Assembly: GCA_026874595.1 (NCBI GenBank)
Contig: CM049308.1
Span: forward strand, 48,307,327 to 48,371,326
Direction of reading: 5' to 3'
Origin: Sipunculus nudus
Taxonomy: Eukaryota; Annelida; Sipuncula; Golfingiida; Sipunculidae
Length of the DNA stretch: 64,000 nt
In this document: one piece after another, positions 8,869 through 61,640 of the stretch
Layout: each line of letters opens with the position of its first letter
Position numbering within the stretch: the stretch's first letter is position 1
Notes under the pieces: model-generated
Seen by the model: the letters and a program-made list of their open reading frames with translations, nothing else
Database searches by the model: none
What the model was told of the DNA's origin: nothing
Position numbers and translations under genes: made by a program

Positions 8869-10682
8869 CAAGGGACCTATGGGTCACTGTGCTCAGCTGA
8901 CGTTAACCTTGAAGGTAAAAATCTAAAATAATATCAAATGGAGATAAAGTGTAAGAGGAAGAGGTAATAAAGGCCATGGTTGGTTTATATGATTGGTTTG
9001 TATTGATGAGCAAGAAATTGTTGCAAAAAATATTTTGTGACCTGGCCATGTGTTTCCTAATGTTGAAACTAAAGCATGCGAGCAGTTTGTGAACAAATGA
9101 TCTGTTTTATTACCATGATCATTAGTTGGTTTTTCGATTAACTGTTGACATTTCAGTAGTTTACACATTTGTTCAATTGAATCTATTTTTTTTTTGTATA
9201 ATATATATTATTAAATATATGTAGTTTTTTATTATGAAATGTATACAGTAGAAATATAGCACATATTTAACAACATAAAACAGGGCAAACAAAGCCTGAT
9301 CTCAAATTCTGCTGAGGCAGGAAAATAATGAACAAATGTTTGTTAAATCCTCATTTTTTTATTACATCAATATATATCTGAATATAAAAGTTGATTCATA
9401 ATTCTCATGTGCATCATCATAAATCTCAATCTTGTCAGATAACACCACATCATGCATACAAATGTTTATTTATTTTTTACCACAAAAATATATCTTTTAA
9501 ATCTGCAAAACAATGAATATCTAAAAATAATACTTGATTTAGATTTCACAATTTTTAATTGTGTCTTTATTTATCCATAATGTGATTCATATTTTATAAT
9601 AATTTAAGCATACTGATGGGTTCAATTATATTTGTTAAAATCATTTAAAAGAAAATTGATTTCTGGATTACACCTTAATTATTTTTTTCAAGGAAAGTTT
9701 TATCAGAGTGGAAACAGCATTACAATTAAGGAGATACAGTGAAAACAATAACAATTACTGCATAACACTTGGTGGGTTGGGTTTGCGGGGGGGGGGGGGG
9801 GGTTGATTGGGGTGGTGATATGAGAATAACTGTACACCTGTCACAGCAGGGGATCTCCCCCAATGACTGTAACAAATCAGAAACCCTGGCATAGCTGACT
9901 TCAAGTGACCTGGAGTGGGACCCTGCATCTGTAATCAAAGCAAGTGACTACAAAAAAAAAAATCAATAACTAGCTTAATTTTCAAGCTTTTATTTTCAAA
10001 TTTCAGATTTAGACAAACTAAATATTTATGTTTACATGCTGTGAAAATTAAATCAATGGTGCTTACAGGAAAAAAACGTGCCATGGTCAAAGTTGGGCAA
10101 AATTTAAGGTACCAATTTTTTTTTTTATGCTAATAACTTAAAAAATTTACAAAATTCAGATCTAATTTTGGGTAAACAATTGAATCTTAATTAAAAATAG
10201 TTATATACTTGAGAAAATAGACTCTAGTTTCAAAATTTTTCATGTTAAGTGAGTTATTATTTTTCCTGATTTTTAACAAAGTCCATTATGTTTGGGCCCA
10301 TAACTTAAAGAATTTATACTTTACAGACTTAATTTCTGGCATGTACATAGGAACTATATAGAGGAATATTTATGGTAAATATGAGGAAAACAGATGAGTG
10401 GTTTTGATATTAGGCAGTCCTGAAGTGTGAAAATAGGATTTTAATAAAAAATTGAGGTTTTTCCTTAATTTCTCAAAGGAATGAAGTCGCAAAGACCCAG
10501 TTTTCAGCTTGGTAGGAGATCTTGGGGACATCTAACATTATGCTGAATTTTGGATTCCTAGGTCTTACGGTTTCAAAACGTGCCACATCTACGGACGGAC
10601 GGACGGACGGACGGACAGACGGACGGACGACGGACAATAGACCACGACTATAGCTCAGATGACTTACAGTCAGCTGAGCTAA
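8869..10682 (-). mobile_element. Helentron-like non-autonomous element, family A
   Basis: The low end is CAAGGGACCTATGGGTCA with GCTCAGCTGAC. The high end is an ACGGACGG microsatellite (about 10593-10632), then CTATAGCTCAGATGACTT and AGTCAGCTGAGCTAA. The interior contains the family A GGCAGGAAAATAATG motif, a G16 run at 9787-9802 and the GGGCCCATAACTT motif near 10303. This is the same layout as 13451-16071 and 50838-52459. Confidence 0.7.
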
Positions 10683-11559
10683 TAAAAATGAGTTTGTATT
10701 GTACCTTATTACAATAGGTTTAGTGATTGACTTATTAACATACAACAGTAAATTATATTCAATTTGTGTTTTGTAAAGGTTACTGAATTGGCATAAATTG
10801 TTGTTGTACAAACAATATTAGTTCAATGTCTTGCAAGACCACACCAGCACACCCGACTCAACATGAATTGGAAATCATTCAGTTGGAGGAGAGTCAAGGG
10901 ACAAGTCTGCACAAGTGTAAAATTACAATATAATCAACTGTTTGCAAATTCATTTCATTCACTTATAAAAATTACACATATAAATACATAATTACAAAAC
11001 ACATTAACACAAAGATTTACCCTTTTTACAAAATATGTATCTTACTCATAGCCAATAAGATGGTCTAATATGTATAGTTCCGTCAAACATGTCACCCAGG
11101 TTTGTGCTGTTCATAAATTTTCTGAACCTGTCTAATGACCACCTTTCTATTATGACCACTTGAGCCCAGACCTTGGGTGGTCGCATTATACAGGTTCAAC
11201 TGTATATAGGTAGGCAGAGTGAGTCCATGACTTCAATTTTTCTGTAAGCAATACACTGGTCATGAGTCCGATTCAATTAGTATATGTGACAGTTTCCTAT
11301 GGTGACAATAATAATATACATAACCAGTCAAAGATCTTCAAAAACCTGAATGCCCCCATGTCCCATTCTAGTTCAGAAATGTAAACATCATCACTGATCC
11401 GGTCTTCAAGGTAACACACTGATGTATGAATTTCTTACCATGAGCACAAAGCCACAAAATAAATGTAAAATATATGTGTACAGATCTTACTGAGATAGTA
11501 TCCTACTCATTGCATCTCCCAACTGCAATAAAATGCTTGGTTACCAGGTTTATCAGCAA

Positions 11560-11560
<1 letters not shown>
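10683..11560. other. Unassigned sequence downstream of the oxidase gene
   Basis: The flank 3' of the minus-strand oxidase gene. I looked for a minus-strand AATAAA within a few hundred bases of the stop codon and did not find a convincing one, so the polyadenylation site is not placed. Confidence 0.35.

Positions 11561-11611
<51 letters not shown>
11561..11611. repeat. (TA)25 microsatellite
   Basis: Uninterrupted TA alternation over about 50 bp. Confidence 0.95.
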
Positions 11612-11613
<2 letters not shown>

Positions 11614-11884
11614 ATTTTGCCATTGGATGGTAAAACATTTTTAGTGTTAATCATCACAATTCAGACAATCCTATGACACAGTTTTCACACTGAAACAGTA
11701 ATCAAAATCAGTACAACAAAATCAACAATAATTTTCCTGAGAATCTGAAAACACTGTGGTGATTGTTTAAATGTAATATTCATTAAAAGCAGCTGTCATG
11801 TTTGAGCTCATGATACAAGAATACATTAAGGTAAGCCGTGGTGTGAAGAAGCTGCCGCAGCCCCTCCAGTTGAACTGGTGAGAA

Positions 11885-12043
11885 TCACAGCTTTGATGTG
11901 ACTGGCGTGTTTGGAAAGTAAGCCCACTCAGCCTTGTCAGTAGGAATACCTGCAATGGGTGCATGTACAGCATTCACAGGATGCATGAAGGCCTCTATCA
12001 ACACCCTGGACAGGTCTTTTGTCTCTCTACACAAGGCTAGGTA
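11885..12043 (-). CDS. Oxidase terminal coding exon with PTS1 signal
   Basis: The exon begins in phase 0 at TAC after the acceptor CTTTCAG (12044-12050). It encodes 52 residues starting YLALCRE, passing APIAG and ending PVTSKL, then TGA at 11885-11887. The final SKL is the canonical peroxisomal targeting signal. The junction with the previous exon (LRDQ | YLALCRE) reads smoothly against the family pattern. The acceptor side is directly followed on the intron side by the 47-bp tandem array that repeats this same junction. Confidence 0.93.
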   Translation of the reverse strand, partial: YLALCRETKDLSRVLIEAFMHPVNAVHAPIAGIPTDKAEWAYFPNTPVTSKL

Positions 12044-15000
12044 CTGAAAGTACATATGTCAGATGAATGGTAATGATACAAGGCTAGGTACTGAAAGAAC
12101 ATATGTCAGATGACTGGTAATGATACAAGGCTAGGTATTGAAAGAACATATATCAGATGACTGGTAATGATACAAGGCTAGGTACTGAAAGAACATATGT
12201 CAGATGACAGGTAATGATACAAGGCTAGGTACTGAAAGAACATATGTCAGATGACAGGTAATGATACAAGGCTAGGACTGAAAGGACATATGTCAGATGA
12301 CTGGTAATGATACAAGGCTAGGTACTGAAAGAACATATGTCAGATGACTGGTAATGATATAAAGCTAGGTACTGAAAGAACATATGTCAGATGACAGGTA
12401 ATGATACAAGGCTAGGTACTGAAAGAACATATGTCAGATGACTGGTAATGATACAAGGCTAGGTACTGAAAGAACACATGTCAGATGATTGGTAATCATT
12501 CAAGGCTATGTACTGAAAGAAACAGATATAAGCTTTCATATTGTCACTAGTGAGGAATCAAGTGATAGATACCTTGGGTCTAAAGACTACTATTTTCATG
12601 TATCAAACATGTTTTCCAATCAGCAGTATGTAGCAATATAAACTGAGCTAAGACAGAAATACAACAGATTTGAGAGAAAAACAAACTGATTTAATCCTTT
12701 TTAGTCATATCATATAACTAGGAACCCATGGGTCTCAATGCTCAGCTGAATTTGTTTATAAAGACATATTTATGAGCTTTTTCAAAATGTGGGTCCCTAG
12801 ACCTTGACCCTTGACCTTGTGACCCAAAACTCTGAGAACTTACTCTCCATAAACTAACACCATTTTAATTTTCAAAAGTATCTGTTGAAACGTTAGTCCA
12901 GTGACCTTGACCTCTGATCAGGTAGCCTCAAAATGTTCAGACTTCTTCCACTTTGAGCAGGTAAGTGATATGTGAAGTAAGGTAATTATATGCTTCTAAT
13001 TTATTTAATTTTAGAGACAGAATGTTAAAATTTCAGATTCTAATAACCATTTAGTGTCATTACAGAATGCTTTTATAACAAATGTGGTAAAAAATATTGG
13101 GTGTGAATGAAGGTTAAGTAAAACTATTCCAAGTGTGTTTGTTGCATGGAGGATTTCATCAAGATCCCAGACATTGCCCTGATTTGATTGGCTGGTACAC
13201 GTGTGACATCATGGACTGAATTTTATCAACAACTCAGATCTAGTAATGCATGTTGTTTTCATTCTCTCCTGAAAATTTGGGACTGGCAGTGGCAGAAATA
13301 CTGTGCATTCACTGAGATCTAGAATTTTTAGTCACAGGGGATTTCCCAGTGTGTGACGTCACTGCCTAATTGACAGTGCTCATTGATGTGCCAATAGTTT
13401 TTGAACAAATCACACAACCTCATGTTTTTAGTGGAAAAAAAATATGGAAACAAGGGACCCATGGGTCACGGCGCTCAGCTGTTATTTATGATAAAAAAAT
13501 ATGTTTAAAAAATGAGGCACATGCTTGTTTTGTGTGGAAATAAATATAAGCTTTATTATGAGTTGAGGGTGTTTAGCTTATGTATGATTTTGATAGTATC
13601 TTTGGAGACAGGGAAGAGGATTGATTTCATTTATTTTTATTAACAAATGGAGTGCTTTTGTCACACAGATTTTGACTTGGCCATATAACTTATAAGCAGA
13701 ACATATAATATAAGAGTTTAACTATTTATTAAAAATAATTACAAGTTGTCCCAAATATAATTTTTATTAAAAATAATAAGAGAATCGTATGATTTTTTAA
13801 AATAAAATACAACTGAAATGATTATTAAAAGAATATCAAAGAATATATTCATGAATGCATTCATGAATACATTTTGAAAGTATTTGCACTGGTATTCATA
13901 TACTTTCATTTTTACCTGAATTCCCATTCTTATGCAAGAAATTTTATAATGGAGTACATATTCATATTCGTATTCAAATACATTTGCAAAGTATTCGCAC
14001 CATGTCTGGTATTTATTCAGTTTTCACCGAACAATGATGTTGAGAATCCAGAATATACAAAATTCACACATTTAAATAATGATCATAAGTACCTGGTTTT
14101 AAGGCTTTTATTCATTTTAACAAAAAATAAATGTAATATATTCATTCTGGACTAATTTCACATCAATGTACACACTAGAAACAGCAGGAATCTAGATTAA
14201 AATTATCAACTGCATCTTTGCCTATCATTAATTTCCTTCATATGATCCCTAATGATTGGTAATGAATAATATGATTTATTTTTTTATCATTAAAATTGAA
14301 CTAAAAAATACCATAGGTAACTGCATGGTGTTATTTGGAATACGTGACATTCTATCAATCGATACAAGATTCTTATATCGTCAGTAACTGCAAGTTAATT
14401 TCCTGTTATTATCAACTTACAAATTCCTTTTCTTTTTTTCTTTAATTTGTTATTAAAAACCAATAATAATTTATTAATTTATTGTTTATTGTTATGTTGT
14501 TAGTTAAAACTACTAGATGAGTTGGGTTGGACACCTGGATCAACTGTGGCTGGCCATAAGCTGCCTGGCTGCCCCAGTGTATGCCTCGCCTCAAGCGTGC
14601 ATAATTTGATGAAAGGTCAACAAGGTCAACATATAGGTGACTCAAGAGGGGCTGGGGAGAGCTAAGGTCTGACATGGTCTCATAAAAACATTAATCAAAG
14701 CTACAATTTTTGGCCAATTTCTTTCAGCTTTCTAAACTAAAAAGCTGAAATCCTTATGTGTGCATGATATGAAAATTATATCAACAGTGCTCACACGAAA
14801 CAAACGTGCCTTGGTCAAAGTTTGGCAAAATTTAAGGTACCAATTTTATATTTATACTAATAACTTATAAAATTTGAAAAATTCAGAACTAATTTTGGGT
14901 ATTCAATTGAATCTTGATAATATAATGTTACATCCCTGACAAAAAATCTCTAGCTTCAGCAATCCTCTTGTTAAGGGAGTTAATATATTTCTTGAATTTT

Positions 15001-18000
15001 TACAGAGTGCATTATGTTTGGGCCCATAACTTAAAACAATTACACAATACTGACATCATTTCTGGCATGTGCATAGAGACTGTATAGAAAAATATGTATA
15101 TTATATATGATTAAAGTCAGAACAGTAGTTTTGATATTAGGCAGTCTTGTAGTGTAACAATGGGTTTTTAATGGAAAAATGAAGTTTTTCATTAATATCT
15201 AAGTCCTAGTGACCAAATTCTTGGCATGGTAGGGATTTTGGAGACATCTAATTGTATGCCAAATTTTAGGAACTGAGAGCTGAAGCTGGGGAGCTGAGCT
15301 CTTGCAAACTGCATAACACTAGCTTGAGGTAAACAATATGTTACATGGTGCTTCAAAACTTGAATAAAATATACAGTTTTTGATCAACTGGTTTCAAATT
15401 TTTGGTGTTTACAGACAAAATGCTAACAAAAACATGCTGTGAAAATTAAATTCATAGTACTTACAGGAAAAAAACGTGCCATGGTCAAAGTTGGGCAAAA
15501 TTTAAGGTAACAATTTTTTATTTTTGTTAATATTTCAAAAAATTTAAAAGATTTTGATCTAATTTTTGGTATACAATTTAATTTTGATTAATTAAAGTTA
15601 CATTACTGGAAAAAAGTCCATAGCTTTAACATGTTTTGTGTTAAGTGATCAAATATCTTTCCTGATTTTTTACAAAATGCATTATGTTTGGGCCCATAAC
15701 TTTTTTAAATTATACAATACAGACATAATTTCTGACATGTACATAGGAACTATATAGGGGAATATTCATGGTAAATATGAGGAAAAACAGATGAGTAGTT
15801 TTGATTTTAGGCAGTCCTAAAGTGTGAAAATAGGTTTTTAATTAAAAATTGAGGTTTTTCCTTAATTTCTCAAAGGAACCAAGTCGCAAAGACCCAGTTT
15901 TCGGCTTGGTAGGAGATCTTGGGGGAATCTAACATTATGCCCAATTTTGGATTCCAAGGTCTTATGGTTTCAAAACGTGCCACATCTACGGACGGACAGA
16001 CGGACAGATGGACGGACGACGGACAATGGACCACGACTATAGCTCAGATGACTTATAGTCAGCTGAGCTAAAAAATTTTTTCCTCCAGGGATTGGGCTAA
16101 TTTTATGTAAAATCTATATTAATATTTTTTTTTACATAACAAATTATGTTATATGATTATATAATGAGATTAGGAATACATTTGTTTAACCTGAAAACCT
16201 TTTTTATCAAAATGTTTAGAATAATAACAGATGCTTTCTAAGAGCAAAATCAGAATACAGATATATTTTATTCATGTATTTATTAGCTCAGCTGACTATA
16301 AGTCATCTGAGCTATAGTCGTGGTCCATTGTCTGTCGTCCGTCCGTCTGTCCGTCCGTCTGTCCGTAGATGTAGCACGTTTTGAAACCGTAAGACCTAGG
16401 AATCCAAAATTCAGCATAATGTTAGATGTCCCCAAGATCTCCTAGGAAGCCGAAAACTAGGTCTTTGCAACTTCGTTCCTTTGAGAAATTAAGGAACAAG
16501 TGACCCATGGGTCATGACGCTCAGCTGACTGGGAAGAGATTCGCAAAAGGAAATTTTATCACCAGAATGGTAGTATATACCCATTCAACTGAAGCATCAA
16601 ACAGATTAACCAACAGGCCAAGATTTAGTCTGTATTTATATATCTCAAAAATAGAGAAAAATGTGTAAACTTTTAAAACTAGAATATGGGTAACCGACAT
16701 TCCTACATGTATCTGCCAAAATCAGATAGTGAGGCATGGATTGAGTGGCAAGGGGAAATAGAGTGAGGTATGTTGCATATTAGCATGGATGTCTGCAGCC
16801 TAAATGTGTATGTAGGTTGTGCCACCTACCACAAATCCAGAAATCTGTCCAAGTTGTATACACCTGCAAAATTTTAGGCAGAAAAGTCAAACCACTACAT
16901 GTATATGAGCGATTTTTGCCCATGGCAGACAAACAGACAAACACTGTGCAAAAATCTTTGCAGGTAACCCCTCCAGTTTTGTGTATGATAAAGACCTATG
17001 TGAGATCTAAACACATGCACAATTTTGGCCCAATCGGTCAAATGGTTCCTGAGATATGAGCTTGGATGTGTCCAGCGTTAACTAGAATGTAGGTGGCGCC
17101 ACCTGTCATAAAATCAAGAAAGCTGTCCACGATGTATAAACCTGCAAAATTTTAGGCAGTTATGTCGAACCACTACAGAGAAATGAGTAATTTTAGGCCA
17201 CGGCAGACTAACAGACAGACGCTGTGCAAACATTGTTACATGTGGCGCCACCATTTTTTGTGTATGTTACAGAGCTATCAAAGGGCTACATTTGTATAAA
17301 TTTTATTTCCTGATCGGTCAAACGGTTCCCGAGATATAAGCTTGGATGTCATCAGCATGAATGTGAACGTAGGTGGCGCCACCTGTCATAAAATCAAGAG
17401 AGCTATCCTGGATGTATACACATGACGAATTTCAGGTGAATTAGTCAATTCACTGCAGAGATATGAGTGATTTTAACCCAAGGCAGATGAACAGATGGAC
17501 ACTGTGCAAACATGGTTACAGGTGGCGCCACCATTTTTTGTGTATGTTATAAAGCAATCCAAGGGCTACATTTGTATCAATTTTATTTCCTGATCGGTCA
17601 AACGGTTCCCGAGATATGAGGGTTTATGAGTGGAAACAGACCCACAAATGGACACTGGATAGAGAGGAAAGGTCAGAGGTCAATGCAAATTGGTTAGGCA
17701 CCAGTTCACATGTGACCAGATAATAGGTGTAAGTTTGGGAAAAATCGGTCCATTAGTCTCCGAGGAGCTCTCTGGAAAAGAACGCCGCCACGGCGGGGGA
17801 ACTCGGTCAAAAACATAGTATCTGCAAAACTTCGTTTTGGCGGATACAAAAATACATGTGGCTCCACCAGTCTGCAGAAACTAATAAAAACACTTAATGG
17901 TCAATATCCATGCAAAAAATCATGGTGATCTCTGCATTAGTTGTTCAGATACTTCAGTTTTTGTATCAAATTGTCCATTATTCTGAGGGATACTTCGGAG

Positions 18001-21000: not shown

Positions 21001-24000
21001 TTCATATCATGCACACATAAGGATTTCAGCTTTTTAGTTTAGAAAGCTGAAAGAAATTGGCCAAAAATTGTAGCTTTTATTAATGTTTTTTATGTAAATC
21101 ATATTATTCATTACTAATCATTAGGGATCATATGAAGGAAATTAATGATAGACAAAGATGCAGTTGATAATATTAATCTAGATTCCTACTGTGTCTAGTG
21201 TGTACATTGATGTGAAATTAGTCCAAAATGAATTTTTTACAGTTATTTTTTAATATAAATAAAAGCCGTAAAACCAGGTACTTATGATAATTATTTAAAT
21301 GTGTGAATTTTGTATATTCTGGATTCTCAACATCATTGTTTGGTGAAAACTGAATAAATACCAGACATGGTGCGAATACTTTGTAATTGTATTTAAATAC
21401 GAATATGATTATGTACTCCATTATAAAATTTCTTGCATAAAGAATGGGAATTCAGGTAAAAATGAAAGTATATGAATACTCGTGCAAATACTTTCAAAAT
21501 GTATTCATGAATGCATTTATGAATATATTCTTTAATATTATTTTAATAATCATTTCAGTTATATTTCTTTTTAAAAAATCATATGATTCTCTTATTATTT
21601 TTAATAAAAATTATATTTGGGACAATATTTATAATTTTTTTTAATAAATAGTTAAACTCTTATATTATTTGTTCTGCTTATAAGTTATATGGCCAAGTCA
21701 AAATCTGTGTGACAATAGTACTCCATTTGTTAATAAAATAAATGAAATCAATCCTCTTCCCTGTCTCAAAAAGGTACTATCAAAATCATACATAAGCTAA
21801 ACAACAACAACTCATAATACAGCTTATATTTATTACCACACAAAACCAGCATGTGCCTCATTTCTAAATAATATTTTTTTATCATATATAACAGCTGAGC
21901 GTCGTGACCCATAGGTCCCTTGTATTACAATTAAGATGGGTATGGGCACCAATTATTCATATTGCCTGTACAGCACTGCTTATATACAAAGAACTCAGTC
22001 TGTTACTGCAATAAATCTACCAGCTTTGTTTACTAAAGTATCTCACAGTCCTTTCATTGTTAAAGGTCCAATAATTAGCCAAAACTCATTTAAGTTAACT
22101 TGAACAAGGACCACCTAAGAAACATTTTTTTGCAGTGTTACAAAATCTGAAACAAAAGTTTCACAGAAGAAGACTACTGCAGCTGTCAGTTTGATATTGG
22201 CTTACTTGGCCACATAACCAACTTCAGCTTTCTACAACTCTACATGTAAGCAATGAACCTAATCTGTTCTTATACAATTGAGAGAACCAAACCCTAGGAT
22301 AGTTTTTTTGTGAAATATTTAACAATTTGGCTTAACAGTTTCATCATAAATATTTTATTGTATTGGCTGCAAGTAGCAAAAATTACATGTTTTTTGCCTA
22401 AAAAAAAACAGTCCATGCAGGTGGTGCCACAAAATCTTCAATTTCAAATATGATTCATGTGACCAACATTTGCATAAAACTTTGTATCCTAGCTCCTGAG
22501 AATCTTATGAGAATCTTATGTTAGTATGCTTACTTTGCCAAAGACTAAATGTAAATTTCTTTAACTCTGCCAAAATTCATCAAACCAAAATCATTTGAAA
22601 AAAATTGAAAGAGCTCATCTCAGGGACTATATCTGTGAATATGGAACAATTTGGACCAATGATTTCAGAGAAGAGGATTTTCAAAGGTTATCTAGCTTTT
22701 TTCCTGTAAAATGTAAATTGATGCAGGTGCTGCCACAGAAAGCTCGATCCCACACCATTTGACATGTGACAGCATAAAATTTTGTGATGCTAGCTCAAGC
22801 TGTTCCTGAGAAATTATGGATTGATATACTGATGACAGATCACCCCCATACAAATAGGTTGATGCAGGTGGCACCAGCAATACCTCAATTCCATAAATGA
22901 CTCATGAGACCAACATTTGCATAAAATTTGGTGATGATAGCTCCTGTCATTTCTGAGATTGTACTTTTAGTATGCTTAATTGGTCAAATGACTAAGTTCA
23001 GCTTCCTGTAACTCAGCAAAAATCACCTAACTGGTTTCAGATATGGAGATTTTTAAAGTTATTTTCAACTTTTCCCCCTGTAACATCTAAAATTTTTGTA
23101 TAAAATTTTTAATTATTATCTTGTAGATTTTTTATTGACCTCCCTGGATGTCCACTTAGATGCATCTAGGGTCAGCAGTTACAATTTTGTGCCTTACAAA
23201 TAGACAGCCAAACTGCTCGACAGCCAACAGACAAAGCCCGATTCCTATACCTCAGTTGACTTTCAGTCAGCTGAGCTAAAAACTAAAATGTGAACTTCTC
23301 TACAGTTTATTTATTGTTTGCAGACAGAATATTCAAGAAGTGACAGAATAAGTGAGTTGCCCACCTGATCTCTGAGGTCTTTGGCCATGCCTGGTGTGAT
23401 GTACTTGTGTTCAAGGTGCCACGCTCGGTCACAGTACATGATGTGTACGCAGTACAGATCACAGAACTAAAAGGAGCAATAGAATAATCACTACACACAA
23501 GGAAGCCAAGGGTCTACCCTCACTCTGCAATATTGTGTATGAAAGTTGTCCCATGAGCCCAAACCATGTTCCCTTTTCAATATTTCATTAGCTGAACTCA
23601 CAAAGCCAAGATATAATATAAATCCAAACAAGTGACCCAGGGGTCATGACGCTCAGCTGACCAGGAAGACATTGACAAAAGTAATTTTATCATCTGAATG
23701 TCAAATTTGAATGAAATACTTTTTCCAAACTTGACCTTTTGTATAAAATCATCCAATATTCATTGGGGTACTATGGAGCTCTGTAGCATGAAGGATATGG
23801 GTAACAGACACCTATTTTCAAGGTTTACAAGATGACTTTTCAGGGGTCTCCCAGCATGTCAAAAAATAAAATTCTAGGTCCAGTTATTATGATTTGTGCC
23901 CTGTTAACAAATCCAAATGTTTATTCTGGGGGGTATTTCAAAGCCGCATAGGATGAAGGATATGGGTAACAGAGATGTAATTTCAGGTGCACAAGGAGAC

Positions 24001-27000: not shown

Positions 27001-29338
27001 GTCAAGTAAGAAGATTCCAGTTCTAGCGGTAACGATTTGTGCCTGGTTAACGGACAGAGGGACAGACAGACAGACAGACGGACAGACAGACGGACGACGG
27101 ACAAAGAGTGATCGCTATAGCTCAGATGACTTTCAGTCAGCTGAGCTAAAAACGAAACATACCATCTTTGAGATATATAATTGTTAATATGTCTTCTAAA
27201 AAGCGTTTTTTTATTTTACGCCTATACTAAATTTGAAGGATTTTATTAAGGTAAAAGTAAAAAATGAAATGATTTGTGAAGATTTCAAAATTAAATACTC
27301 TGTAAAATCGTAATTTTTAAACTTAACTCACTAAACAAAAAAAGGCCTGGGGATTATTATCTAAATTCTCGATTTATTAAAGAAGATTTTCTGTATCTGC
27401 TTTAGTTGTGCTGGAATAAACGATTTTTTGTTAAAAATTAAAATTAAATTAAAATTCTTACAAATTCAAACCTGTTCCTCGGAAACAAAGTTTATTATCA
27501 CCAAACTATAGAAAATTTTCTTAGCTTTCAGAAAATGTATACTTTAGGGGGTATTAAAGCATTAGATTGTTCCATGCAAAGGAAAAACTGAAACAAAGTC
27601 AGGTCAGGTGGGGGGACCAGTTGTGCCACCTTAAGTAGGAATATATTCAAAATAACAAATATTTTATCTCATTGTTTCCTTTCTGTAACAATTTTCACAT
27701 AGTGTTATCTAGGAATAGAATACATCCCCTTAGAAATGTGCTATATCAGTGAAATATAGGGGTTGATCCTTAGAATGTAATTTAATTTATTAATGATCAT
27801 ATACAATACATACTAGGAAAGCTTGATAAATGACTTATCACAGCATAGACTAATGCAGCAAAATAACAATACACCAAATACAGCATTCCATGACTTAGTG
27901 AGTAAGTCTTACCTTCGTGACCAAGTCTTACCTTCTGTAGAAGTTTCTTGTCTTCTTCAACAGGACATTTATTCACAGCTTCCTGGAACTGTTCTAGAGT
28001 CACTGAAAAAATTAAAATGTGACCCAAGAGTCTCAACATTTGGCTGACAACATTTTGTGAAATACTGGTGATGACCTGATATCAGCTGAAAACCTCAGGC
28101 CTGAGCAAAAAGCAAACAAAACAATTAAAGGAAAGGTCAGCTGAGATTCTCAGGCCTTAGCAAAACACAACCAAAACAATTAACAGAATGGTCAGCTGAG
28201 AACCTCAGGCCTGAGCAAATCACAACAAAACAAGAAACAGGATGATCAGCTGAGAACCTGTTAATTGGAGCTGGATCCCAATAACAAGGGACCCATGTGT
28301 CATGTCACTCAGCTGAATTTTGGAAAATTTTGGCAAATGCAAAATATACATTAGCATTTGAAAAGCTAAGAGGAAATAGTCCTGCTAACTGGTGATAATC
28401 AAATATTAAATATATATTTGGCGAACTAAAACTGTGCACTTTTTATGCCTATATTAAAGGAACAGGTGTCTCTTATGATCAAATATTTCTAGAAGTAACA
28501 TTATTTTAGCAATGTGACAGTAATATGTGCATAAAATAACCATGGGAATGTATGAATACCAGTCAATTATAGAATAAGACAGAAAATACAAATTAGCTGA
28601 AGTATAATTATATGCATTTAATTCATTAACTGAAATAAAAATGCTGTAAAAAACATTTAAAACAAGCAAATTTGTGGAATTAATGTCCTCTGCTTTGGGC
28701 TCTTGTTGTCTTTCATGCTTGATAAGCAACCAAAATTATGACTTGTGAAGAAATCTTGAGGGCACATGTAAACATAAACAGATCCACTATGACATGTGGA
28801 GACATCTGCAGGCGAACATAAAAACTAAAACACATTGAGAAATAGGACCAAAATCTACATTGACATGTGAAATATTTTGCAGGTGAACATAAAACTAAAA
28901 CACATTGAGAAATTGGACCAAAATTTAATAATTTTGTTTTGAGCTGGAGAGAATTTTTTTTTCAGATAGACACTCCAAAACCAATCCCAACCAAGATCTG
29001 TATAAGAGAGATCACTGATCCAAATTTGAATGAAATCAGATAATATTTAGGAATGTTATCGCATGGAAACAAAAACCTGACGGATGTGCAGACAGACAGA
29101 CACACAGACAGAGGGACAGACAGACAAACCCAAATCAAATTTTCAAATGAGCATTTATTAACTAAATCTGATAAGTATATATTTTACTGTGTAATACATG
29201 AAAAATGTGGCCTGAATTCATTTAATATTGCAATAAGGAAATAAAAAAACATAATGTGCCTAAGAGTTATATGAAAGGATACATTTGACCAAAACAAAAA
29301 TGAGTTAATGTTATTAATTAGTCTGGATGGAGGAGGAG

Positions 29339-50700: not shown

Positions 50701-53700
50701 TGTTGCCTAATCTGACAGAGTTGGCAGTCTGTTGTGCACATGGTGCATGCTCTAGGTAAAGGTTTCTTAATTATGGTTAATTAGTGGATTACAGTACTGG
50801 ACTTAGTTTTGCAAGCATTTGGGGTTCATGAGTTCAACAAGTGGCCTATGTGCCATGATGCTTAGCTGAATTCGTGGAACCTTGAACAATGGGTAACATG
50901 ACTCCCTGAGTGCTTTATGAGGAAAAGGTAATAAAGGCCATGGCTGGTTGACAAGATTGGTTTGTATTGATGAGTAAGAAATTGTTGCAAATAATATTTT
51001 GCGACCAAACTACGCATTTCCTAATGTTAAAATTGAAGAATGTGAGCTGTTTATAACCATAAGATGTATATTATTACCATGATCATCAGTTGGCTTTTTG
51101 ATAAATTGTTAACAAATTGGATAAAAAAGTTCATTCACAATTACTTAATACTTAAAAAAGGACACACAGACTGGTAAACAAAGCTGATAATATACAAAAT
51201 ACATACAAATCATGCATACAAATGTATTCTTATTTCTTACCACAAAAACATATCTTTTAAATTTGCAAAACAATAAATATCTATTAATAATACTTGATTC
51301 TGATTTCACAATTTTAAACTGTGCCTTTGTTTATATTAATTTGCTTCATATTTTATAAATTTATGCATACTAAAGGTTTAATTATATTTTAATTGGTTAA
51401 AGTCCTCTCAAAGAAAATTGATTTCTTTAAAAATGCTACATTGAAACAACATTGGCATCTTCTGGATTACTACTTGAATTACTTATTGAGGAAACTTTTG
51501 TATACTTCCAATAAGAAAATACAGTGCAAACAATAACAATTACTGAAAAAACATATGGTGCGGAGGGTTAGGGTGCTTGGGGGGGGGGGGTGTGGAGCTT
51601 GATATGAGAATAACTGTACACCTGTCACAGTAGGGGGGATCTCCCCCAGTCACTGTAACAAATCAGGAACCCTGGCATAGCTGACTTCCAGTGACCATGA
51701 GTGAGTTCCCTGCATCTGGACAAAGCAAGTGACTACAATAGAGCCTCAAGAAAAAATTCAATAACTAGCCTTATTTTTAAGCTTTTATTTTCAAATTCCA
51801 GATTTAAACAAATTAAATATGTATGTTTACATACAAAAATTTAATCAAAAGTAATCATAGGAAAAAAAGTGCCATGTTCAAACTTTGGCAAAATTTAAGT
51901 ACTGATTTTATTTTTATGATTTTATTTATAACTAATAATATTCACAAAATTCAGATCTAATTTTGGGTAAACAACTGAATCTTAATTAAACAAAATTATA
52001 TACATGTGAAAATAGTCTCTAGTTTTCAAAATTTTTCATGTTAAGTGAGCAGATATTTTTCCTGATATTTTTACAAAGTCCCTTTTGTTCGGGCCCATAA
52101 CTTAAAGAAATTATACTAAAGGGACTTAATTTTTGGCATGTATATAGGAAATTTATACAGAATAATGATAAATATTAAGAAAAACAGATAACTGGTTTTG
52201 ACATTAGGCAGTCCTGAAGTGTGATATTAGGTTTTTACTGGAAATTGAGGTTTATCCTAAATATCTTGGAGGAACGAAGTAATATTGACCCAATTTTTGG
52301 CATGGTAGGAGATTACGGGGATATCTAACAGTATGCCAAATTCGGGATTCGTAGGTCTAATGGCTTCAAAACAGGCCAGTCTAATGGACAGACAGATGGA
52401 CAGACGACAGACAATGGACCACCACTATAGCTCAGATGACTTACAGTCAGCTGAGCTTAAAATACAGGTTGTGCCACCGCTTTTCAGGAACTGACAACCC
52501 TAGCCATGGTCAATATTCAAGGCAAGATTCAGGGCAATCAATGCATTAATTATCAAAATACTGAAGGTTTTGTATAGAATTTATAATTATTCTGTACTTA
52601 CAAGCCCCATAGCTCAGAGAATATAGGTCAATGTCACCTTATTTTGGGTTTCCAAGGAGATTGTTCATGGACCTCCCTGGATATTTAGTTACAGGTTTCT
52701 AGGGTCAGCAGTTACAATTTGTGCCCTGCTAACGGATGGCTGGACAAGGACAAAGCACCATTCCTTACCTCAGTTGACTTAAACAACTAAGCTAAAAACA
52801 GGTGGACAGGGGAACAGGAACGGACTATATAACAGAGGTACCTGCAGCATGACCACATTGTCTCCTTCAAAAGTAACAAAGACATCTGCATCCCTCTTCA
52901 GGTTGGAAATCCTGTTCTCCTCCATGTAGCCCTGGACAGATATAACACAGAAAATAAGGTCAACACAAATACATGCTAAGTATACAATAAAAAAGAAAGG
53001 AACCATCTCCTTACAACTGTTAAGGCCATCTTGTATATGATTCTGCACATGACTATTATATCCATCATCAGAGGTTCAAGGTATAAAGCTATCTCCTAGT
53101 TATGTTGTTGAAACACTTTTGATAATACAGGCTTAATAGCATCAAAATGCCAGTGTTTGCCAGCAAATTTAATAACAAGTGAATAGTCAATAAACGCTAT
53201 CTAACAGATTATCCTACATTATCACTGAAGGACTAGAGTGTCTAATTACTGACACATGTGATGCTGCTCTGTGTACATTATCACTGAAGGACTAGAGTGT
53301 CTAAACACTGATACATGTGATGCTGCTCTGTGTACATTATCACTGAAGGACTAGAGTGTCTAAACACTTATACATGTGATGCTGCTCTGTGTACATTATC
53401 ACTGAAGGACCAGAGTGTCTAAACACTTATACATGTGATGATGCTCTGTGTACATTATCACTGAAGGACCAGAGTGTCTAAACACTTAATCATGTGATGC
53501 TGCTCTGTGTACATTATCACTGAAGGACTAGAGTGTCTAAACACTGATACATGAGATGCTGCTCTGTGTACATTATCACTTAAGGACTAGAGTGTCTAAA
53601 CACTGATACATGTGATGCTGCTCTGTGTACATTATCACTGAAGGATAAAAGTGTCTAAACACTAATACATGTGATGATGCTCTGTGTACATTATCACTGA

Positions 53701-56700: not shown

Positions 56701-57521
56701 CATGGTGATCAATGCATTAGTTGTTCAGATATTTGAGCTTTTGTATCAAATTTTTCATTATTCTGGGGGGGTACTTCGGAGCCCCATAGCTTGAAAAATA
56801 TACTTAACAGAGACCTAATTCCAAGTTTTTTAAGAAGATTTTTAATGGACCTCTCTGAATGTAAAGTTAGAAGATTCCAGGTCCAGCTGTTACGATTTGT
56901 GCCTTGTTCACAGAAGACGGCATATTTTGAGGTCTCAAAAATAGAGAAAAAAAATTATTCAAAAAATCAAAAAATATAGGTGGCGCCAACAGTCTGCAGA
57001 AACTGATGAAAGACTCCATGATCAATATCCATGCAAAGAATCATGGTGATCAATGCATTAATTGTTCAGATATTTGAGCTGTTGTATCAAATTTTACATT
57101 ATTCTGGGGGGGGTACTTCGGAGCCCCGTACCTCTCTGGATGTAAAGTTAGACGATTCCAGGTCCAGAAGTTACTCTTTGTGCCTTGTTAACAGACAGAC
57201 TGCCGGATGGCCGGACGGACGACGGACAAAGAGTGATCGCTATAGCTCAGGTGACTTAGACTCAGCTGAGCTAAAAAAGTAAATGATCTTTGAGACAGAC
57301 TGACAATTCTTCAGTGTTAATAGTCAGTGTGAGACATGTTTGGTCTGTGGTGCTGACAAACACCTACCATGCCTCCTGTACATTCCCTGCAGGCTTGCAG
57401 CGCCTCCACACTCTGCCAGGTGCTGTAAGCTTTCAGTCCTGCTGCAAGTGCCTGCAGGCGCCGGTTCTCCAGGATGCTCTGCTGCTGGTGCACAGCCTCA
57501 TCCAGCATCTCACCAACATGT
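11885..57521 (-). CDS. Peroxisomal acyl-CoA oxidase-like gene, 3' part (8 exons seen)
   Basis: This is a flavin-dependent acyl-CoA oxidase/dehydrogenase family gene, expected to catalyse the first step of peroxisomal fatty-acyl-CoA beta-oxidation (2-trans-enoyl-CoA plus H2O2). Eight exons were assembled by eye (57368-57521, 52842-52931, 49669-49778, 41706-41817, 32622-32709, 27932-28002, 23365-23466, 11885-12043). All have GT..AG borders and their phases join exactly, giving 294 residues and a stop. Visible landmarks in order are [33 protein letters not shown] (Glu is the catalytic base position in the family), [27 protein letters not shown], and a C-terminal SKL, the type 1 peroxisomal signal. 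The motifs around FEGDN and CDLY look closer to the bacterial-type acyl-CoA oxidase branch than to vertebrate ACOX1, so no symbol is given. Roughly the N-terminal half must lie beyond 64000. Introns are 3.1-11.3 kb and repeat-filled. Confidence 0.9.
12044..12530. repeat. 47-bp minisatellite copying the exon 8 acceptor
   Basis: About ten 47-bp units, each carrying (plus strand) ACAAGGCTAGGTACTGAAAG, then ACATATGTCAGATGA and TGGTAATGAT. The first 13 bases of that phrase are the first bases of the terminal exon and CTGAAAG is its 3' splice site in reverse. Each full unit therefore carries a decoy acceptor. The last unit near 12490-12525 is diverged. Confidence 0.92.
12531..12720. other. Intron 7 spacer
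   Basis: Ordinary AT-rich intron sequence between the minisatellite and a degraded element end. Confidence 0.4.
12721..13450. mobile_element. Degraded Helentron-like end and unassigned intron sequence
   Basis: GGAACCCATGGGTCTC followed by GCTCAGCTGAA at 12721-12750 is a diverged copy of the palindromic element end. No matching hairpin end was found before the next element at 13451. The stretch from 12790 to 12920 has repeated GACCTTGACC phrases. No gene is visible. Confidence 0.4.
13451..16071 (-). mobile_element. Helentron-like family A copy (left arm of a long inverted repeat)
   Basis: The ends are CAAGGGACCCATGGGTCA and AGTCAGCTGAGCTAA with an ACGGACAGACGG microsatellite near 15989-16022. 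The interior contains two family A half-units, each with a GGGCCCATAAC motif (near 15023 and 15690). About 13451-15860 is repeated in inverted orientation at 19912-21922 and in part at 35826-36365. The matched open frames in these copies reflect shared ancestry, not a gene. Confidence 0.72.
16497..19910 (-). mobile_element. Helentron-like family B element nested in a family A copy
   Basis: The element starts CAAGTGACCCATGGGTCATG and ends AGTCAGCTGAGCTGA. The host copy continues on both sides: ...AATTAAGGAA before and AAACCTCAATTTT after. The uninterrupted homologous site near 15855 has five As, which the two flanks restore exactly, so there is no target duplication. The core has about five tandem ~336-bp units (marked by GGTGGCGCCACCAGTCTGCA near 18878, 19215 and 19551). 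An ACGGACAG microsatellite (19825-19862) precedes the hairpin end. No protein is encoded. Confidence 0.78.
16677..17848. mobile_element. Family C tandem-core element nested in the family B element
   Basis: The left end is AACTAGAATATGGGTA. The right end is a hairpin, GTATCTGC ... GCGGATAC (17818-17847), with a TTCG centre. The core has ~279-bp dimeric units punctuated by GGTGGCGCCACC (17093, 17372, 17520). The family B unit is split: CTCAAAAATAGAGAAAAA stops before 16677, and AAATACATGTGGCTCCACCA resumes after 17848. Confidence 0.7.
21923..23279. mobile_element. Family D repeat element in intron 7
   Basis: From about 22030 there are units with AACTCAGCCAAAAATCA-like and GCAGGTGGTGCCACA-like phrases (near 22420, 22728 and 22864), ending in TGACTTTCAGTCAGCTGAGCTAA at 23279. 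It resembles 49380-49547 and 62820-63871. The low boundary is not clear. Confidence 0.5.
23365..23466 (-). CDS. Oxidase exon 7 (of those seen)
   Basis: This is a 102-bp exon of 34 codons, phase 0 at both ends, between acceptor TTTTAG and donor GTGGGC. It encodes [16 protein letters not shown] near the start and ends AKDLRDQ. The CDLY...W..EH pattern is typical of the C-terminal helical domain of acyl-CoA oxidases. The next exon continues with YLALCRE. Confidence 0.92.
23467..23628. other. Intron 6 spacer
   Basis: Short intron sequence with no feature. Confidence 0.5.
23629..27149 (-). mobile_element. Compound family B Helentron-like block
   Basis: The block starts CAAGTGACCCAGGGGTCATG. It contains about ten ~336-bp family B units (GGTGGCGCCACCA near 24305, 24676, 25011, 26442 and 26780, with variants near 25430, 25767 and 26110). 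Three hairpin ends AGTCAGCTGAGCTAA occur, at 24659, 25176 and 27149, two of them preceded by ACGGACGG or GACAGACAG microsatellites. Several elements, or repeated 3'-end recruitment, are merged here. Nothing is encoded. Confidence 0.7.
27150..27931. other. Intron 6 AT-rich sequence
   Basis: AT-rich intron directly downstream (in gene sense) of exon 6. No element ends or open frames supported. Confidence 0.5.
27932..28002 (-). CDS. Oxidase exon 6
   Basis: This is a 71-bp exon after acceptor TTTTTTCAG, entering in phase 2 (its first two bases complete the GTG valine begun in exon 5) and leaving in phase 0 at CTACAGAAG before GTAAGA. It encodes [21 protein letters not shown], a helix expected between the family's HVER-like and CDLY motifs (21 residues, positions 3-23). 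A second copy of the donor, GAAGGTAAGACTT, lies 19 bp further on; using it would break the frame with exon 7. Confidence 0.9.
28083..28260. repeat. ~60-bp tandem repeat, three copies
   Basis: Three imperfect units share TCAGCTGAGAACCTCAGGCC, TGAGCAAA and CACAACAAAAC phrases. They lie about 80 bp upstream (gene sense) of exon 6. Confidence 0.8.
29342..29387. repeat. (GA)n microsatellite
   Basis: About 23 GA dinucleotides followed by a purine-rich tail to 29410. Confidence 0.95.
30137..31230. mobile_element. Truncated family C element
   Basis: The usual AACTAGAAT start is missing, but the next family C sequence (GTGAGGCATGAATTGAGTGG) is present. Units with GGTGGCGCCACC occur at about 30512 and 30786, and the terminal GTATCCGC...GCGGATAC hairpin is at 31200-31229. 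Confidence 0.7.
31982..32621. other. Intron 5 sequence
   Basis: AT-rich intron with no supported element. A short minus-strand open frame here is only the downstream run-on of exon 5. Confidence 0.45.
32622..32709 (-). CDS. Oxidase exon 5
   Basis: This 88-bp exon enters in phase 0 (GTA) after acceptor CCACCAG and leaves in phase 1 before GTAAAT. It encodes [19 protein letters not shown] early on and ends LCHIQR plus the first base of valine. The PF.AW..CLDH pattern fits the acyl-CoA oxidase C-terminal domain, and the phases match exons 4 and 6 exactly. The acceptor has almost no polypyrimidine tract, and a TA repeat begins 21 bp upstream of it (gene sense). Confidence 0.9.
32731..32788. repeat. 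(AT)29 microsatellite next to an exon acceptor
   Basis: A pure AT alternation that occupies the place where the branch point and polypyrimidine tract of exon 5 would normally lie. Confidence 0.95.
33058..35467 (+). mobile_element. pogo/Tigger-like DNA transposon, 2.4 kb
   Basis: Perfect 26-bp terminal inverted repeats begin CCGTTTTCCCCCATAG (33058-33083 and 35442-35467), flanked by TA on both sides (33056-33057 and 35468-35469). The left end repeats the phrase GATAATCCGCACCC twice; the right end has related TATAATACGCACC. A broken transposase gene lies inside. The element sits in intron 4 of the oxidase gene in the opposite orientation. Confidence 0.9.
33709..34753 (+). pseudogene. pogo-type transposase with Brinker-like DNA-binding domain, broken
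   Basis: The start ATG at 33709 opens a frame with a Brinker/psq-like helix-turn-helix ([19 protein letters not shown]... NVRLWK, residues about 4-45). A CENP-B/Tc5-type helix-turn-helix region follows, around [20 protein letters not shown]_1 catalytic domain comes next, with the three acidic residues in GNADQT (34210-34212), LVLDAFGCH (34538-34540) and [10 protein letters not shown] (34649-34651); 36 residues separate the last two. Two lesions are visible: an in-frame TAA at 33892-33894 between the two DNA-binding parts, and a single-base frameshift at about 34430-34437 just before GWMDD. The C-terminus is also cut short by AT-rich sequence after KYRLE. It encodes no working transposase. Domain order resembles POGK-like pogo proteins. 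Confidence 0.88.
35826..38068 (-). mobile_element. Helentron-like family A copy
   Basis: The low end is CAAGGGACCCTGGGTCACGG. The high end has ACGGACGGACGGACG and AGTCAGCTGAGCTAA. The segment 35826-36365 is a third copy of the start of the 13451 element. The G9 patch at 37202-37210 and the motif TTTGGGCCTATAACTT near 37686 match the family A core. Confidence 0.7.
38069..38834. promoter_or_regulatory. CpG-containing stretch upstream of a possible plus-strand start
   Basis: From about 38600 the sequence gains CpG sites (ATCGTCACATCGTTCG, ACGCACGTATAGC, GACGCGTG) up to the ATG at 38835. No TATA box at a clear distance. Promoter status is inferred only from the neighbouring possible exon. Confidence 0.2.
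38835..38853 (+). CDS. Speculative first coding exon (MAGRGR...)
   Basis: AAAATGGCCGGTCGCGGTCG has a reasonable start context and is followed by G|GTAAGC, a strong splice donor, giving MAGRGR plus one base. An arginine/glycine-rich start of this kind occurs, for example, in RNA polymerase III subunit G/GL-type proteins. No following plus-strand exon was found in the window, so this may equally be part of the surrounding mobile element. Confidence 0.22.
38854..39800. other. Unassigned sequence inside the composite element
   Basis: A moderately CpG-rich stretch (38880-39060, 39380-39600) without a recognisable product. Confidence 0.35.
40150..41375. mobile_element. Possible element with ACGAC-rich and TCGT-rich ends
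   Basis: From 40150 to 40270 the plus strand carries many ACGAC/CACGA phrases. From 41105 to 41375 it carries many TCGTA/ATCGT phrases, the inverted counterpart. A perfect 13-bp inverted repeat (CGAATCGCCACGA at 41326-41338 and its complement at 41347-41359) lies at the right side. Between them is a ~150-bp tandem duplication (about 40330-40480 and 40490-40640). Exact ends were not found. Confidence 0.35.
41396..41705. repeat. ~36-bp minisatellite copying the exon 4 donor
   Basis: About eight imperfect units read (plus strand) CTGGCTGACCTGAACAGTTG, CACCTGTAAACTGCA. In the gene sense each unit contains GGTCAGCCAG or a variant, the sequence of the exon 4 donor (AAG|GTCAGCCAG). Two units closest to the exon carry GGTGAGCC (41649-41656) and AGTAAGCC (41614-41621), better donor matches than the real one. 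Confidence 0.85.
41706..41817 (-). CDS. Oxidase exon 4
   Basis: This 112-bp exon follows acceptor GATTACAG. Its first base completes the serine codon begun in exon 3, and it leaves in phase 0 at AATAAG before the donor GTCAGC. It encodes [14 protein letters not shown], then [19 protein letters not shown]. The F..(K/R)EE..L...A.RL pattern is shared by the family. The donor has C at the third intron base, which makes it weak. Confidence 0.9.
41937..42660. repeat. ~300-bp direct repeat, two to three copies
   Basis: Successive blocks share GTGACCTCTGACCT, AAATATGCATG, GATTTTGCTGGAAAT, TTCCTTGTACT and CACCAAGAA.TGGCCTGTAC. A GGACGGACAGACAG tail follows near 42700. The sequence is non-coding, in intron 3. 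Confidence 0.7.
43500..44648 (+). repeat. 78/79-bp satellite, about 14 copies, higher-order organised
   Basis: The unit is ATGGCTAAAACTACGCTAAA, then CGAACCCTGCGTGTATAC, TTTCTGCCCGTCTACG and CTTTCATAAGTGTATTTTT. Units with five Ts are 78 bp (26 codons), so frames stay open across copies; units with six or seven Ts break the frame. A five-unit block starting at 43912 recurs almost identically at 44308 (396 bp apart). Confidence 0.92.
44735..45384 (+). repeat. TTTC/TTTCAG polypyrimidine tract
   Basis: About 640 bp of CTTT repeats with CAGTCTTTC interruptions. The long Ser/Phe/Leu open frame over it is a repeat artefact. In the oxidase transcript the tract reads as GAAA-rich purine sequence. 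Confidence 0.95.
45450..46620. other. Unique CpG-containing sequence inside the composite element
   Basis: Two imperfect copies of a GCGGTTTCAACA... segment (45522-45620 and 45618-45700) and a (CA)n at about 45559-45575. A CpG-rich patch lies at 46070-46145. No product recognised. Confidence 0.4.
46655..48647. mobile_element. pogo-like TA-flanked element, about 2 kb
   Basis: Perfect 25-bp inverted repeats begin CCGTAAAAGTCGTTGC (46655-46679 and 48623-48647), flanked by TA at 46653-46654 and 48648-48649. Subterminal phrases CAAGTCGCACCC and GGTCGCACCC repeat on both sides. Two adjacent open frames (47796-48002 and 48003-48218, plus) show no transposase motif, so it looks non-autonomous or carries captured sequence. 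Confidence 0.82.
48750..49270. other. Intron 3 spacer
   Basis: Intron sequence without a supported feature. Confidence 0.4.
49271..49547. mobile_element. Family D fragment
   Basis: Contains GCAGGTGGCCCCACCAATA, ACCAACATTTGCATAAAATT and a hairpin-like end GAAGTCAGCTAAGCTAA at 49547. Confidence 0.5.
49669..49778 (-). CDS. Oxidase exon 3
   Basis: This 110-bp exon enters in phase 0 after TTTACAG and leaves in phase 2 (AG of a serine codon) before GTTAGT. It encodes [16 protein letters not shown] and ends GLVDRFRT. It directly follows the [10 protein letters not shown] of exon 2, as in the family where LLQ is followed by a V.K.LL..Y helix. Confidence 0.93.
49970..50740. repeat. Family E dispersed repeat
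   Basis: It includes AAGGCCTACAGGCCTAATGC (near 50128), a ~150-bp unit with TGCAGGTGACACCACAAGTC (50360) and TAGGTGGCAACACCAGTC, and a right part with GACCTGTACCTGGCT and GTTGGCAGTCTG. The same order recurs at 58470-62140, where it is interrupted. Confidence 0.6.
50838..52459 (-). mobile_element. Helentron-like family A copy
   Basis: The low end is CAAGTGGCCTATGTGCCATG. The high end is CAGATGGACAGACGACAGAC then AGTCAGCTGAGCTTAA. The G12 at 51579-51590 and TTCGGGCCCATAACTT near 52090 mark the family A core. Confidence 0.68.
52460..52796. mobile_element. Diverged single family B unit
   Basis: Begins with a degenerate ACAGGTTGTGCCACC, carries CATAGCTCAGAGAATATAGG and TTTCCAAGGAGA, and ends in AACAACTAAGCTAA. 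Confidence 0.5.
52842..52931 (-). CDS. Oxidase exon 2 with the catalytic FEGDN motif
   Basis: A 90-bp, 30-codon exon, phase 0 at both ends, between acceptor TGTCCAG and donor GTACCT. It starts [18 protein letters not shown] and ends [12 protein letters not shown]. In acyl-CoA oxidases the Glu of (T/F)FEG(D/E)N is the catalytic base that removes the alpha proton; its codon is at 52866-52868. With exon 1 it forms GGMGYMEENR, the flavin-side loop where most relatives have GG(A/Q)GY. Confidence 0.95.
53216..55022. repeat. 59-bp minisatellite, about 30 copies
   Basis: The unit is ACATTATCACTGAAGGACTA, GAGTGTCTAAACACTGATA, CATGTGATGCTGCTCTGTGT. Variants (CTAG/CCAG, GATAC/TAAAC, GCTGC/GATGC) recur in blocks, suggesting local duplications. 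It lies in intron 1, about 285 bp upstream (gene sense) of exon 2. Confidence 0.97.
55373..57274 (-). mobile_element. Helentron-like family B element
   Basis: The low end is TAAGTGACCCATGGGTCATG with GCTCAGCTGAC. About five ~336-bp units follow (GGTGGCGCCACCAGTCTGCA at about 56638, a variant near 56979, degenerate earlier). A GGCCGGACGGACGACGGACA tail then leads to CTCAGCTGAGCTAA. Confidence 0.75.
57368..57521 (-). CDS. Oxidase exon 1 of those seen
   Basis: A 154-bp exon after acceptor CTGTCACAG. Its first base ends a codon begun in an exon outside the window, and it leaves in phase 0 before GTAGGT. It encodes [17 protein letters not shown], then [17 protein letters not shown] and ACRECTGGM. 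The AAGLKA..TW....(I/L)Q.CRE..GG signature is characteristic of the acyl-CoA oxidase family. The start methionine is not here; this is an internal exon. Confidence 0.92.
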
Positions 57522-60426: not shown

Positions 60427-60474
60427 ATGATTGTAGCTGGCACCACCGGTCTTATATACAACAAAGAGATATAT

Positions 60475-61640
60475 AACTAGAATACGGGTAGTTGACAAGC
60501 GACTACGTGTATCCGCCAAGATCGGGTGAAGTGAAGTATGGATTGAGTGGCAGGGGAAATAGAATTACATGTGTTACATCTTAGAATTGATCTCTGCCAC
60601 ATAAACATGATTATAGGTGGCGCCACCTGTTATTTGAACAAGAAACTATCCAAGATGTATACACATGCAAAATTTCATGTGGAAAAGTCAAACCACTGCA
60701 GAGATATGAGTGATTTTATTCCACAGCAGATAAACAGATGGACGCTGTGCAAAAATGGCTGCAGGTGGCGCCACCTTTTTTTGTGTATGTTATAAAGCTA
60801 TCCAAGGGCTACATTTGTGTAAATTTTTTTTCCTGATTGGTCAAACAGTTCCGGAGATATAAGCATTAATGTCTGCAGTGTGAATGTGAATGTAGGTGGC
60901 GCCACCTGTCATTAAATCAAGAAAGCTATCCAGGATGTATACACATGCCGAATTACAGGTAATTTGGTCAAACCACTGCAGAGATATGAGTGATTTTAAC
61001 CTAAGGCAGACAAACAGATGGACGCTGTGCAAATATGGCTGCAGGTGGCGCCACCATTTTTGTGTATGTTATAAAGCTATCTAAGGGCTACATTTGTGTA
61101 AAAATTTTTTCCTGATTGGTTGAATGAGTCCGGAGATATAAGCATGGATGTCTACAGTGTGAAAGTGAATGTAGGTGGCACCACCTGTCATAAAATCAAG
61201 AAAGCTATGCGGGATGTATACGCATGCGAAATCTTCAGGTAATTTGGTCAAACCATTTCAGAGATATGAGTGATTTTAACCTAAGGCAGACAAACAGATG
61301 GACGCTGTGCAAAAATGGCTGCAGGTGGCGCCACCATTTTTGAGTATGTTATAAAGCTATCCAAGGGCTACATTTGTGTAAATTTTTTTTCCTGATTTGT
61401 CAAACGGTTCCCGAGATATGTGGGTTTATGTGTGGAAACAGACGCACAAACGGACGTTGGGCAGAGAGGAAAGGTCAGAGGTCAAGGTCACCTGGTTAGG
61501 CACCAGTTCACATGTGACCCGATAATTTGTGTAAGTTTCAGAAAAATCCGTCCAGTAGTCTCAGAGGAGTTCTCCGGAAAAAACGCCGCGGAACCCAGTC
61601 AAAAACATAGTATCCGCAAAACTTCGTTTTGGCGGATACA
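60475..61640. mobile_element. Family C tandem-core element
   Basis: Left end AACTAGAATACGGGTAGTTG with the GTAGTTG..CGACTAC hairpin and TATCCGCCAA. GGTGGCGCCACC occurs at about 60615, 60766, 60896, 61044 and 61323, alternating about 150 and 130 bp apart. The terminal hairpin GTATCCGC AAAACTTCGTTTTG GCGGATAC is at 61610-61639. Confidence 0.8.

Follow-up and report, generated by a model that had tools for sequence, protein, structure and literature searches.

A minisatellite that copies the acceptor of the last exon in an acyl-CoA oxidase gene, probably as a tolerated mirage

The oxidase gene and its last exon

The window, that is, the whole stretch of 64,000 nucleotides that was analysed, carries on its minus strand a gene that, by its translated sequence, is an acyl-CoA oxidase (ACOX). 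Its last coding exon is preceded by a 47-bp minisatellite whose units copy the border between the last intron and that exon, and the upstream copies of the acceptor are referred to here as decoys. Five exons of the gene were identified. The exons at 57368..57521, which encodes part of the C-alpha1 domain (...ACRECTGGM), and at 52842..52931 (GYMEENR...) were taken from a coding-potential scan, and together they match the C-alpha1 domain PF22924 with 68 bits (cut-off 27). Lists of open reading frames supplied the exon at 27932..28002, which ends AAG/gtaaga, and the penultimate exon at 23365..23466, which holds 34 codons in phase 0 and ends CAG/gtgggc; both contribute to a match to PF01756. The borders of these four exons were set by eye. 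Judging from an intronless relative, a segment of about 76 residues should lie between the exons at 52842 and 28002, and it is not among the five exons. The last coding exon (11885..12043) comprises 52 codons and a TGA, and its product ends T-S-K-L. The S-K-L codons directly precede the TGA at 11887-11885 and are predicted to encode a peroxisomal signal of the PTS1 type. Given the border of the penultimate exon, the last intron extends over 12044-23364, or about 11.3 kb. Downstream of the stop, a search of the gene strand for eight hexamers (10000-11900) found no AATAAA; of the variants, AATGAA at 11784 lies nearest.

The border at which the last exon begins is supported by the protein that results from its use. 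When the exons at 28002-27932, 23466-23365 and 12043-11885 are joined, their product matches PF01756 (ACOX) with 33.1 bits (cut-off 22.1). In this match, 87 residues fall on 87 profile positions across both junctions, so that joining at 12043 brings in no net insertion. Two intronless ACOX relatives from the same genome can be aligned to this C-terminus over 68 residues, both junctions included, with no gap. Because entry at a decoy would insert at least 47 nt and close the frame, this gap-free agreement is the strongest evidence that 12044/12043 is the functional border. The argument from the relatives rests on this alignment and on the Pfam match, not on tblastn E-values. Searched against the window by tblastn, the relatives gave only weak matches to the last exon (E 2.6 and 5.9) and to the exon at 52.9 kb (E 0.034 and 0.059); no separate match to the exon at 28.0 or 23.4 kb was among those listed. 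The last exon alone has no family match and a single PDB row with E 1.3, and the joined C-terminus has neither a PDB nor an NCBIfam match. A preliminary description of this DNA had proposed an oxidase with a peroxisomal signal and an exon border at 12043/12044. The matches to PF01756 and PF22924 and the SKL end back the first proposal, and the gap-free alignment, together with the Pfam match of the joined exons, upholds the second.

Other oxidase sequences are present in the same genome. Two ACOX-like frames (L016 and L017), about 58 kb apart on contig C2, are each open over 648 codons, apparently intronless and alike by eye, and both end without SKL. Unlike these two, the other ACOX matches in the genome sit in short, exon-like open stretches. 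A genome search for a second close copy of the array-bearing gene found none, its six matches being three of the gene's own exons and three matches with E of at least 4.87. Thus, there is no processed copy in which the choice of acceptor is recorded.

Anatomy of the array

The minisatellite occupies 12031..12521 on the minus strand (10.5 copies of a 47-bp unit, 94% matches by TRF). In gene sense, a full unit consists of 34 intronic nt (ATCATTACCAGTCATCTGACATATGTTCTTTCAG, ending CTTTCAG) and the 13 nt with which the exon starts (TACCTAGCCTTGT), and so couples an acceptor module with the start of the coding sequence of the last exon. The exon-side end of the array continues straight into the real last exon, and the copy farthest from that exon (exon +1 at 12512) is incomplete, with a likeness to the unit that begins at TTCTTTCAG. 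Eleven copies of the acceptor are present, namely the real one at 12044/12043 and ten decoys upstream of it (12078..12521; exon +1 at 12090, 12137, 12184, 12231, 12277, 12324, 12371, 12418, 12465 and 12512). They are spaced by 47 nt, with a single step of 46. The AG is kept in nine of the ten decoys, and the exception, with exon +1 at 12137, reads CAA.

At a tolerance of three mismatches, each of two 20-mers taken from the unit has ten matches, all within the array, against an expectation of 0.01-0.02 from shuffles; chance is excluded as the origin of these matches. The genome was searched as one assembly of 1.43 Gb in 153 contigs, the largest of at least 111 Mb. Two units used as queries returned five matches among the best-scoring candidates, all in the 12031-12521 array, by a search that scores only the best candidates and passes over very common words.

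This organization is that of the mirages of amphioxus, which are described as minisatellite-like tandem duplications of an exon-intron border in which many, but not all, units keep the splice signals (PMC3087553, PMC3902484). Both features are found here: the tandem units span the end of an intron and the start of an exon, and most decoys retain the AG.

For a mirage, homogenised interior units and divergent boundary units would be expected. Several interior copies are identical (12418, 12324 and 12090; 12231 and 12184, by exon +1), a pattern that fits ordinary, recent minisatellite turnover, and private changes at interior positions distinguish units. Divergence is greatest in the outermost full copy, but the interior copies at 12371, 12277 and 12137 are about as divergent as the copy adjacent to the exon. 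Counted over ten full units, with the real one included and a gap scored as a change, 14 of 470 positions depart from the consensus (11 of 340 intronic and 3 of 130 exonic). Among the nine full decoys one AG is broken, where the general rate of change predicts 0.53, and there is thus no sign of selection for or against the decoys. Weak selection may be compatible with so small a sample.

Strength of the acceptors and consequences of decoy use

The real 3' splice region (12044..12077, minus strand) contains a branch-like CTGAC, the short pyrimidine tract TACTTTC and a CAG, and carries two private changes relative to the array consensus. When an acceptor module is defined as a branch-like YTNAY followed by a pyrimidine tract and a YAG, eleven modules pass in the array, including the real site. 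One of the eleven relies on a TAG at 12130, which replaces the lost AG of its unit. Pyrimidines number 8/12 at the real acceptor, fewer than in any other module (9-10/12). The decoys are therefore not weaker by sequence, and a choice of the real site is not explained by pyrimidine count. CTGAC lies upstream in eight of the nine AG-intact decoys, the ninth (12512) having a different branch-like match. Folding of 300 of the 491 nt of the array revealed no unusual structure, the fold being no better than shuffles (z +1.6), and so hiding of the decoys by RNA structure is not indicated. A purine-rich stretch, GTAGAGAGACAAAAGACC (12013..12030, minus strand), follows directly on the shared 13 bases at the real exon and is absent from the units; it is a possible splicing enhancer.

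Use of a decoy would truncate the protein. Entered at the nearest one (exon +1 at 12090), the frame runs for 17 residues and meets a TAG. None of the ten decoy frames stays open for long: eight, including that of the copy reading CAA, stop after 17 residues, and the other two after 25 and 1. The frame opened by the real acceptor has 52 residues, with TSKL at its end. Since 47 is two more than a multiple of 3, translation usually passes through the following acceptor as ...ACC TAG. The predicted loss on decoy splicing is the 52 residues with the SKL, and 30 of the 52 lie inside the Pfam ACOX match, so that the probable outcome would be an inactive enzyme rather than a relocated one. The preliminary description had anticipated about ten decoys, each with CTTTCAG and 13 coding bases, ahead of the real acceptor, a nearest decoy that adds 47 nt and reaches a TAG after 17 residues, and the loss of the exon's coding sequence and SKL on decoy use. 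The array scan finds exactly ten upstream copies, and the translated frames confirm both predictions.

Repeats elsewhere in the window and the genome

Tandem repeats are abundant in this DNA. Arrays with periods of 10-100 make up 6.8% of the window, or 6.0% without the 47-bp array, and cover 11% of a 200-kb genome sample (20 stretches of 10 kb each, of which two consist almost entirely of satellite). At such a density, an array near some exon is unremarkable in itself. An acceptor module within the repeat unit was found in none of nine sampled genome arrays (period 20-100, at least three copies) by a test whose positive control fires, and in two of six array rows of the window, which are the 47-bp array and a 55-bp array.

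The 55-bp array (28081..28259, minus strand, 3.3 copies) lies 79 bp before the exon at 28002 of the same oxidase gene. In gene sense, its unit contains an acceptor-like module, ..TTTTGCTCAG/GCCTGAGG, and two of three copies qualify under the YTNAY, tract and YAG rule; the unit is without sequence of the exon at 28002. On the evidence of these modules, the array may be a second set of decoys in the same gene. Of ten exon loci in the other ACOX genes, one (L022) carries an array, 2.4 copies of 21 bp, that lies no more than 60 bp from the match. This degenerate 21-bp repeat (1380-1510 of L022, contig C7) touches an ACOX exon, and its units resemble, by eye, the acceptor region GTTGCTGACAG; it is possibly a second, older mirage. 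Together with the 55-bp array, it hints that arrays near borders are perhaps not rare in the array-bearing genome.

Other repeats in the window are of different kinds. Minisatellites at 53215-55021 (59 bp x 30.6) and 43462-44650 (78 bp x 15.1) lie between oxidase exons and touch no identified exon. Satellite-like arrays with 273-340-bp units and a common palindrome, GGTGGCGCCACC, occupy 16777-19824, 25428-27051, 30215-30928 and 58825-61419, and a similar array is present on another contig (L012:55-1071). On the plus strand, reading frames at 33694-34684 resemble what we take to be a transposase of the pogo/Tigger type.

A probably tolerated border duplication and its alternatives

The array is probably a tolerated mirage, with splicing mainly at the last acceptor, 12044/12043. 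A 47-bp stretch lying over the intron-exon border (34 acceptor nt and 13 coding nt) would have been copied in tandem, the border in use remaining where the array meets the exon. The penultimate exon (end 23365) would most likely still be joined mainly to 12044/12043, a choice at the RNA level that we infer from the protein it preserves. We propose that the last acceptor is preferred because no other copy has behind it a true exon, complete with purine-rich stretch and 3' end; excision of the intron would then take the decoys with it. Residual decoy use would give a truncated oxidase that lacks PTS1 and is probably non-functional. As the anatomy suggests, the number of units could drift at low cost, because in-register exchange leaves an acceptor and 13 bases on the exon. 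The preliminary description had allowed, as a fallback to tuning, that the array is simply tolerated. This fallback is now the better supported of the two, since like arrays elsewhere are reported without splicing disturbance.

Tuning would require the array to act as a copy-number rheostat, in which more units lead to more decoy splicing and array length sets how much SKL-bearing oxidase reaches the peroxisomes. Several features of the locus would suit such a role: the nine AG-intact decoys all exceed the real site in pyrimidine count, and all nine have branch-like matches, CTGAC in eight. A stop codon in a last exon also usually escapes nonsense-mediated decay. There is precedent for splice choice deciding PTS1 in the malate dehydrogenase of Yarrowia, where introns differ by 4 nt, and in other cases (PMC3798809). 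However, comparable arrays are reported without splicing disturbance (PMC3087553, PMC3902484), each decoy product lacks 52 residues that include conserved ACOX sequence and is therefore probably inactive, and the decoy AGs show no excess conservation. Taking these points together, we consider a rheostat unlikely. In its length-tunable form, each added module would enlarge the truncated share without PTS1, and unequal exchange would reset peroxisomal fatty-acid oxidation from one individual, or even one cell, to the next, which is quite improbable.

Decoy use could instead be leaky and unregulated, with a constant, sizeable share of transcripts entering at decoys and the allele amounting to a partial loss of function. 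Such leakage would agree with a real acceptor that other copies surpass in pyrimidine count, with the absence of a canonical poly(A) signal after the stop, and with reports that human repeat borders can leak (PMC2812944). It is nevertheless doubtful, as the coding sequence past the array is intact and conserved and the mirage precedents are reported as normally spliced.

It is very improbable that the array is a source of new exons or introns, with one unit becoming an exon: this is the model published for the mirages of amphioxus globins (PMC3087553), but the units here have no good donor by inspection, and the frames entered at decoys all close within 25 codons. An assembly artefact is scarcely credible, for although the array is known from a single assembly, its units carry private interior changes and the flanking exon is intact.

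Comparison with known systems

Mirages in amphioxus have been reported in Adh3, the globins BflGb6 and BflGb9, PGBD5 and troponin C (PMC3087553, PMC3902484). RT-PCR of such genes suggested normal splicing (PMC3087553), and the account given in the PGBD5 paper is that the Adh and troponin C mirages produce no aberrant mRNAs (PMC3902484). As reported for BflGb6, the repeat described here takes in the 3' end of an intron and the 5' part of the next exon (PMC3087553). The dimensions differ: the unit is 47 bp here, compared with 150-160 bp in BflGb6 and 10-72 bp in Adh3, and ten acceptors lie upstream here, compared with the 6 and 3 repeat units given for two BflGb6 haplotypes. Unlike in the amphioxus mirages as described, the last exon here bears a PTS1. 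The amphioxus genome is about 0.5 Gb in size, and at 1.43 Gb the array-bearing genome seems too large to be one. Among the literature matches listed, which comprise titles, abstracts and passages of mostly non-subscription papers, none describes a border-spanning array in a mollusc or other non-amphioxus invertebrate, and the arrays to which they give the name mirage all come from amphioxus; the repeats of an earthworm paper, according to its listed text, lie within intron 1 (PMC12783039).

Human genes offer further points of comparison. The CBS variant c.844_845ins68 is a 68-bp duplicate of the border between intron 7 and exon 8, and of its two competing sites the distal one is reported to be strongly favoured (PMC2630376). 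That source calls the duplicated sites donor sites, whereas a title cited there concerns 3' splice sites (PMC2630376). Like the array, this variant duplicates a border with competing sites; unlike the array, it has one extra copy and affects an internal exon. The 31-bp VNTR of CBS, c.1444_1467+7(16_21), is a polymorphic minisatellite whose unit, by its name, consists of an exon end and seven intron bases (PMC2630376). It spans a border as the array does, but on the donor side, whereas the acceptor side is repeated here. For the 38-bp repeats in intron 6 of TERT, copy number reportedly influences splicing, nine or more repeats being needed (PMC3948165). Those repeats are reported to act through RNA:RNA pairing and lie more than 1 kb from the junctions, whereas here the repeats are the sites themselves. 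Variable repeats at human exon-intron boundaries have also been reported to form new introns, and transcripts that keep the repeats accompany 66% of the intron modifications (PMC2812944).

Against this background, ten near-equal acceptors ahead of one exon provide a natural experiment on whether the spliceosome takes the first acceptor met, the last one met or the one backed by a real exon. More broadly, the occurrence of a mirage outside amphioxus would suggest that such arrays are not special to that group.
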